Shown here one piece after another: positions 48,834 to 48,999 of a stretch of 58,811 bases of DNA. Source of the DNA: Desulfuromonadales bacterium (lineage in GTDB: Bacteria; Desulfobacterota; Desulfuromonadia; Desulfuromonadales; BM103); assembly GCA_030145195.1 (NCBI GenBank), contig JAQYVY010000021.1, positions 1 through 58,811 of the forward strand, written 5' to 3'. A program made the position numbers and the translations under genes. How positions within the stretch are numbered: position 1 is the first letter of the stretch; every line of letters begins with the position of its first letter. The notes beneath the pieces are model-generated. The model was not told where the DNA came from. It searched no databases and saw nothing but the letters and a program-made list of their open reading frames with translations.

Positions 48834-48880
48834 AAATAAAAAGACGCCAGATCTTCTGATCACAGAAGATAAGGCGTCTT
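48834..48880 (-). terminator. leader terminator upstream of glnK
   Basis: On the minus strand AAGACGCC-TT-ATCTTCTG pairs with CAGAAGAT-CT-GGCGTCTT around TGAT, followed by TTTTATTTT. It lies between the sigma-54 promoter and glnK, so transcription must pass it for the operon to be made. Its 5' arm overlaps the second hexaloop hairpin. Confidence 0.9.
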
Positions 48881-48913
48881 TGCCTTGCAACATAACCGGG
48901 ACATCTTTGTCCC
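48871..48913 (-). promoter_or_regulatory. dual hexaloop motif of the ANTAR-antiterminator type
   Basis: Hairpin 1 is GGGAC-AAAGAT-GTCCC (48898-48913) and hairpin 2 is AAGGC-AAAGAC-GCCTT (48871-48886), 11 bases apart. Both have perfect 5-bp stems and 6-base loops with A first and G fourth, the known ANTAR-protein recognition pattern. Hairpin 2 shares GACGCCTT with the terminator's 5' arm, so forming it blocks termination. In Geobacter an ANTAR regulator (GnfR) is reported to act on nitrogen genes this way. The protein is not encoded in this window. Confidence 0.85.
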
Positions 48914-48981
48914 GCTATCGTGCTCATATTTTTTAGGGCGTTAAGCCGTTTCCGTTGTGCCCCGTCGACGATTCAATAATA

Positions 48982-48999
48982 ATGCATCTGCCGTGCCAA
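48982..48999 (-). promoter_or_regulatory. sigma-54 promoter of glnK-amtB
   Basis: The minus strand reads TTGGCACG-GCAG-ATGCAT, matching the consensus YTGGCACG-N4-TTGCW at all key bases, with GG and GC ten bases apart. Transcription would start near 48971 and give a leader of about 190 bases. Activation would need an NtrC-type protein, possibly phosphorylated by the kinase just upstream. Confidence 0.85.

Follow-up and report, generated by a model that had tools for sequence, protein, structure and literature searches.

The window, by which we mean the whole stretch of 58,811 nucleotides analyzed here from a Desulfuromonadales bacterium, carries glnK and amtB on the minus strand behind a leader with a promoter and several RNA structures, and a histidine kinase gene lies upstream on the same strand. 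All leader features were read on the minus strand, towards glnK, and are listed in that direction:

49098-50690, minus strand: GAF-PAS-HisKA histidine kinase gene, upstream of glnK
49078-49060, minus strand: candidate enhancer-binding-protein site CTGTTGATTTTTTGTGCAT, a TGY-N11-RCA inverted repeat starting 78 nt ahead of the sigma-54 box (counted to its first T)
48999-48982, minus strand: sigma-54 box TTGGCACG-GCAG-ATGCAT, with -24/-12 elements at fixed spacing
48914-48897, minus strand: P1 hairpin CGGGAC[AAAGAT]GTCCCG, six pairs, hexaloop with A at position 1 and G at position 4 (A1/G4)
48886-48871, minus strand: P2 hairpin AAGGC[AAAGAC]GCCTT, A1/G4 hexaloop
48881-48840, with the T run to 48838, minus strand: intrinsic terminator that includes the P2 loop and 3' arm
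48786-48445, minus strand: glnK (P-II signal protein)
48415-47030, minus strand: amtB (ammonium transporter; NCBIfam TIGR03644, 'marine subtype')
46991-47015, minus strand: perfect 10-bp hairpin lacking a T run, between amtB and the porin gene
46959-46207, minus strand: putative porin gene of the Gcw_chp / TorF family, probably the third in the operon
46135-46163, minus strand: terminator past the porin gene, the probable end of the operon

The initial annotation had placed the Gcw_chp gene under the same control as glnK and amtB. A T-run terminator follows this gene and none was found between it and amtB, but a strong hairpin does stand in that gap; from the sequence, membership in the glnK-amtB operon is plausible. 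The 10-bp hairpin may be a processing or stability element. Relatives of the Gcw_chp gene are found 3' of amtB at loci L154, L156, L157, L158, L163 and L165. At another locus (G089:C2, L217), two amtB genes stand behind the kinase; reading of the sequence gives the second its own sigma-54 box and no attenuator.

The leader elements that had been described on first reading of the window were all found in place on the minus strand. Of the two 5-bp hairpins then reported, the loops AAAGAT and AAAGAC and their A1/G4 pattern hold, but P1 has six pairs. The sharing of the second hairpin's 3' arm with an intrinsic terminator was recovered both in the fold and by a strict scan that looks for two A1/G4 hexaloop hairpins plus an overlapping terminator. 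Folding of the terminator segment gives -25.9 kcal/mol (z -7.0), which none of 200 shuffles equaled; for the P1-P2 segment the value is -24.2 (z -4.2). The motif of ANTAR targets has been defined as two hexaloop hairpins with A1/G4 loops, the second of which overlaps a terminator, with linkers of 5-12 nt in the Enterococcus faecalis eut leaders (Ramesh et al. 2012, PMC3369931). In the window P1 and P2 are separated by 10 nt, inside that range, and the linker is longer than 10 nt in several relatives. The window leader presents the structural properties of an ANTAR-target attenuator: two hexaloop hairpins, A1/G4 in both loops, the linker, and a P2 that is mutually exclusive with the terminator.

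We assessed how often such a combination arises by chance. The strict scan returned a single match in the 58.8 kb, both strands included. With the terminator requirement dropped, seven other dual-hexaloop matches appeared in the window, so the loops alone are unconvincing, and dual hexaloops lacking a terminator were rejected as evidence. A covariance model of the leader (R1) gave one strong match in the bacterium's own genome (E 3.7e-8), the next having an E-value of 1.4, with 150 of the 1688 first-look candidates scored. The IUPAC pattern ACAANGRYGT-N8..30-GCAANGRYGC likewise occurs once in this 3.4-Mb genome, and its backwards control not at all. At the Rfam gathering threshold the window contains nothing except a 6S RNA, and the leader has only sub-threshold matches to unrelated families.

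R1 was derived from an alignment (A1) of 15 leaders, the window plus 14 Desulfuromonadales loci. To survey the order we used 82 amtB orthologues with at least 69% identity over nearly full length; partial matches in G086 and G008 and matches of 44-49% identity were left outside this set. Removal of one locus at a contig end (G018) and of the second copies in G051 and G089 left 79 assessable leaders, of which R1 matched 60 strongly (E<0.001) and 12 weakly, with seven giving no match. Since 15 of the 60 strong leaders had trained the model, the figure outside training is 45 of 64. Two of the less similar loci (L253 in G062 and L254 in G072, among the 44-49% identity matches) are strong too and stand outside the count of 79. 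By comparison, R1 found no match at E<=1 among 61 amtB loci outside the group, mostly from alphaproteobacteria.

Conservation of the loops in close relatives had been set beforehand as a test of the proposal, and the leader passed it: 58 of the 60 strong leaders have an A1/G4 hexaloop, the pattern that the script sought, at P1, and all 60 have one at P2. The 3' arm of P2 pairs again within a terminator in 57 of these leaders, whereas shuffling the sequence that follows P2 gives an average of 12.1 (sd 2.6); two of the three misses come from folding that halted at a T run within the terminator loop. An ungapped terminator scorer had found just 29 of 60 and was replaced by folding because it missed bulged stems. 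In the helices of A1, 87.7% of positions are paired versus 29-50% when the helices are slid, and 22 double-change cells were counted versus 7.3 in shuffles. Compensatory change is seen on three of five covariation measures, each exceeding all 500 shuffles, while the other two show no excess (5 double-change pairs versus 3.3, reached by 63 of 500 shuffles, and 11 further pair types versus 10.6, reached by 252). The 12 weak leaders all come from ANTAR-bearing genomes, 11 of them with the kinase. Eight of these (L175, L176, L205, L212, L216, L245, L246 and L249) keep P2 and the terminator without a canonical P1, as judged by eye, and may represent a single-hairpin variant; some P1-like loops in these eight start with G.

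The sigma-54 box claimed in the initial annotation is present, the genome encodes RpoN, and a box scoring at least 9 of 12 precedes 75 of 76 amtB orthologues; for these counts three leaders (G125, G127 and G109) were removed from the 79, and a fourth (G036, box below 9/12) was removed to give 75. In G075 and G089 the box chosen by the script differs from the one preceding the attenuator. The inverted repeat at 49078-49060 had no part in the earlier description. A TGY-N11-RCA repeat occurs before the sigma-54 box in 62 of the 75 leaders, versus 4-18 of 75 for spacers N5-N10 and N12-N17, and in 63 when 76 leaders are counted, versus a shuffled mean of 10.5 (sd 2.9). Distances from repeat to box cluster at 68, 78-79, 88-90 and 98-100 nt, a period close to one helical turn; 55 of 75 repeats fall at these phased positions versus 0.9 in shuffles, with the phases picked after viewing the data. 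Together, the -24/-12 spacing, RpoN and an upstream activator-type site characterize a sigma-54 promoter, and the candidate repeat has, in its sequence, the geometry of an enhancer-binding-protein site. NtrC sites are repeats of the TGC-N11-GCA type, and the NtrC-activated glnK-amtB promoters of proteobacteria combine a sigma-54 box with such a repeat upstream. The window resembles these promoters in its box, its upstream repeat and its glnK-amtB operon, and differs from them by the added attenuator and by a repeat that is A/T-rich inside.

A search for an ANTAR-domain protein, suggested as a check when the leader was first described, gave a single match (E 2.8e-19) in the 3.4 Mb and 100 contigs of the own genome, a receiver-ANTAR response regulator on contig G000:C67. 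When a regulator protein was used as the query in 13 genomes, the results were swamped by ordinary receivers, and a separate listing of ANTAR matches was used instead. Among the 60 strong leaders, 56 come from ANTAR-positive genomes. Across 277 genomes of the class, R1 under stricter filters matched 70, and ANTAR was found in 67 of these versus 168 of the 207 others. Over the 79 leaders, the association of the motif with ANTAR is not significant alone (Fisher p 0.09) and that with the kinase has p 0.018, kinship being ignored in both. Four genomes have a strong motif and no ANTAR match (G063, G075, G082 and G134; completeness 89, 99, 80 and 100%).

The seven leaders with no motif fall into two kinds. 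In three (G125, G127 and G109) no glnK start was seen in the leader stretch, and at the G109 locus (L017) tblastn found no glnK. The other four (G019, G056, G076 and G080), from three genera in two families, have the sigma-54 box and lack the attenuator, and searches of these genomes for ANTAR, the kinase orthologue and nifH gave no match; with completeness of 82, 98, 93 and 84%, not all of these absences are certain. All that remains in G076 and G080 is what appears to be the terminator's 3' half and T run. The four leaders resemble natural deletions, and would show the cost of a terminator once its antiterminator is gone. Together with the conserved enhancer-like repeat, they support the earlier proposal that the operon is controlled twice, at initiation and at elongation.

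Of the 136 genomes in the order, 77 have an orthologue of the kinase (E<=1e-60), and at 58 of the 82 amtB places one lies directly upstream on the same strand. ANTAR was found in 74 of the 77 kinase-bearing genomes versus 32 of the 59 others (p 4.8e-9, kinship ignored). In the order, 106 genomes are ANTAR-positive; among the 53 with a listed ANTAR place, kinase and ANTAR genes are at most 6 kb apart in 10, and six of these have less than 700 nt between the two matches. The gene order is regulator-kinase-glnK-amtB-porin at L158, kinase-glnK-amtB-porin-regulator at L154 and L156, and kinase-glnK-amtB-regulator at L155; at L157 the regulator-kinase pair is divergent from glnK, and the layout in G001 is known from coordinates alone. 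In G038, G064, G065 and G068, kinase and regulator lie together on a contig other than that of the motif. The own ANTAR gene does not adjoin the kinase, and when the 30 top-scoring ANTAR loci in the class were viewed with flanks of about 1.5 kb, a kinase match, of 35% identity, turned up at only one; nine of the 30 loci, this one included, are from the own family. Based on the synteny in 10 of 53 genomes and the co-occurrence in 74 of 77, the kinase at 49098-50690 is probably the partner of the ANTAR response regulator, though the regulator gene lies elsewhere.

The motif had been offered as a search tool for other members of the regulon. This succeeded in relatives, where it led to nifH, nifB and draTG leaders, but in the own genome, which has both nifH and draT, the strict motif finds only glnK. 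Of the pattern matches outside glnK we examined 12: six precede nifH, three nifB and two an exported protein gene, and one (L297) has no terminator and is probably a chance match inside a gene. The nifH matches come from six genomes of one genus and lie about 160 nt upstream, with a sigma-54 box and a terminator; nifH was identified by search in four and by frame reading in two. At the other three, the gene we take to be nifB was named from its reading frame; two have a sigma-54-like box and L294 has no obvious one. Both R1 and the strict scan also recovered a leader at G074:C27 (L162) with an enhancer-like repeat, a sigma-54 box, a dual hexaloop and a terminator before genes that are presumably draT and draG. 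A motif derived from glnK leaders has thus located nifH and nifB leaders outside the set from which it was built.

In the own genome, neither the strict nor the relaxed scan found anything in the nif region or around the ANTAR gene, and the draT leader, read by eye, has a sigma-54-like box and no dual hexaloop. Inspection by eye of the own nifH leader (L298, G000:C71:27400-28300) suggests a pair of modified attenuators, the first with loops GCCGCT and GATGAA (not A-initial), the second with a 7-nt loop and ATTGAC; the script confirmed the first terminator unit only. Among 21 nifH leaders of the order, the script found two tandem P2/terminator units in 14 and one in seven, with R1/G4 loops allowed and the counts unshuffled; Rfam gave nothing at 20 of the 21. 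NifH (E<=1e-100) is present in 74 of the 136 genomes, and ANTAR in 71 of these versus 35 of the 62 without nifH (p 1.6e-8, kinship ignored). An extra hexaloop hairpin, CATC[AANGNN]GATG, occurs in 15 of the 21 nifH leaders; it usually lies 65-98 nt ahead of the gene (L299-L318), and no terminator was noticed over it.

Very probably, the glnK leader is an ANTAR-responsive transcription attenuator behind a sigma-54 promoter. When nitrogen is limiting, an enhancer-binding protein bound to the repeat at 49077-49061 would let RpoN-polymerase start near 48972, a position predicted from the sequence. The RNA would by default fold into the terminator and transcription would stop before glnK; the structure is backed by sequence, covariation and folding, and termination as the default state is our inference. 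By analogy with the published EutV mechanism, a phosphorylated ANTAR dimer would grip the P1 and P2 hexaloops, hold the 3' arm of P2 and block the terminator, so that polymerase continues into glnK, amtB and the porin gene. Synteny and co-occurrence point to the gene just upstream, at 49098-50690, as the kinase of the regulator. The outcome would be an AND gate on ammonium uptake that is common to the nitrogenase genes, and the response of the leader to ammonium is likewise a deduction. Because relatives share the switch, the enhancer-like site and the adjoining kinase gene, ammonium uptake probably needs two separate permissions. With moderate confidence we extend this to the order as a nitrogen circuit that would couple initiation by sigma-54 in series with antitermination by ANTAR at glnK-amtB, nifH (where the attenuator is often a tandem pair), nifB and draTG. 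The kinase gene would be kept upstream of the glnK leader and, where regulator, kinase and nitrogenase have been lost, the attenuator would be deleted and the sigma-54 promoter would stay.

The terminator could instead merely end the transcript of the upstream kinase gene, with the hexaloops incidental. That gene does end about 220 nt before the terminator on the same strand, and no kinase orthologue was found in the four genomes whose leaders lack the attenuator. The sigma-54 box, however, sits between kinase and terminator, and any transcript that starts there has to pass through the terminator. Moreover, the strong motif precedes glnK-amtB even in genomes whose kinase orthologue lies on a different contig (G068, G064 and G038) or is divergent (G036), and the two-hexaloop/terminator unit also stands before nifH and nifB; we regard this explanation as highly improbable. 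It is also very unlikely that a different RNA-binding factor reads the attenuator. The four genomes that keep the motif with their ANTAR gene undetected would fit such a factor, but two of them are less than 90% complete, so the gene could be missing from the assembly, and the loop rules, the two-hairpin layout and the nitrogen context are those published for ANTAR targets.

A more serious alternative leaves the attenuator as proposed and concerns the kinase, which might serve the enhancer-binding protein while the ANTAR regulator has another kinase. NtrB serves an enhancer-binding protein, as does GnfK; an NtrC-type repeat is conserved before the sigma-54 box, the kinase has partial matches to the AtoS, ZraS and NtrB models, and the own ANTAR gene lies away from it. 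These model matches are far below the cut-offs, however, and the proximity of kinase and ANTAR genes in 10 of the 53 listed genomes, with the short intervals in six, argues for the ANTAR regulator as partner. We consider the alternative possible but unlikely, and retain the pairing of this kinase with the ANTAR regulator.

Part of this arrangement has precedents. GnfR of Geobacter sulfurreducens is reportedly an ANTAR response regulator that controls nitrogen-fixation genes by antitermination; the system proposed for the window would resemble GnfL/GnfR in placing such a regulator on nitrogen genes by the same means. Like attenuators of the EutV/NasR/AmiR type, the window leader has two small hairpins with A1/G4 loops, a short linker and P2 over a terminator, and belongs to nitrogen genes; unlike them, it adds a sigma-54 promoter, a conserved repeat ahead of that promoter and a kinase gene on the 5' side of the target. 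Leaders of P-II proteins and ammonium transporters are among the matches of Ramesh et al. 2012 (PMC3369931), as is a nitrogenase regulon in Pelobacter carbinolicus, and Tables S1/S2 of that paper may already include Desulfuromonadales leaders. Since the authors define the motif and name such leaders, the motif and its place before P-II and ammonium-transporter genes are known in kind; sigma-54 is not discussed in the part of that paper available to us. In G. sulfurreducens, GSU2822 is given as gnfR, a nitrogen fixation response regulator (PMC7962754), and the PII gene GSU0939 is tabulated with RpoD (PMC2725144), so Geobacter may not share the sigma-54 arrangement. Among the literature matches listed, a limited set of mostly open-access main texts, we found no account of the Desulfuromonadales glnK leader, and within that set the coupling in series together with a phased enhancer site, the placement of the kinase beside its target and the pattern of losses appear to be new. 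Predicted ANTAR targets thereby become a testable circuit in Desulfuromonadales, with promoter, enhancer-like site, attenuator, regulator and a named candidate kinase.

Two minor observations concern other loci. The two exported-protein matches (L295 and L296) and a further leader (L166) have a sigma-54 box and a dual hexaloop before a gene for an apparently exported protein with the motif ATPSTQ-WIPSTD, and L295 and L296 are close to the ANTAR regulator gene. In the window, the 6S RNA gene (Rfam RF00013, 99.2 bits) lies at 50902-51082 on the plus strand, opposite to the kinase gene, and is accompanied by a terminator-like site at 51085-51115.
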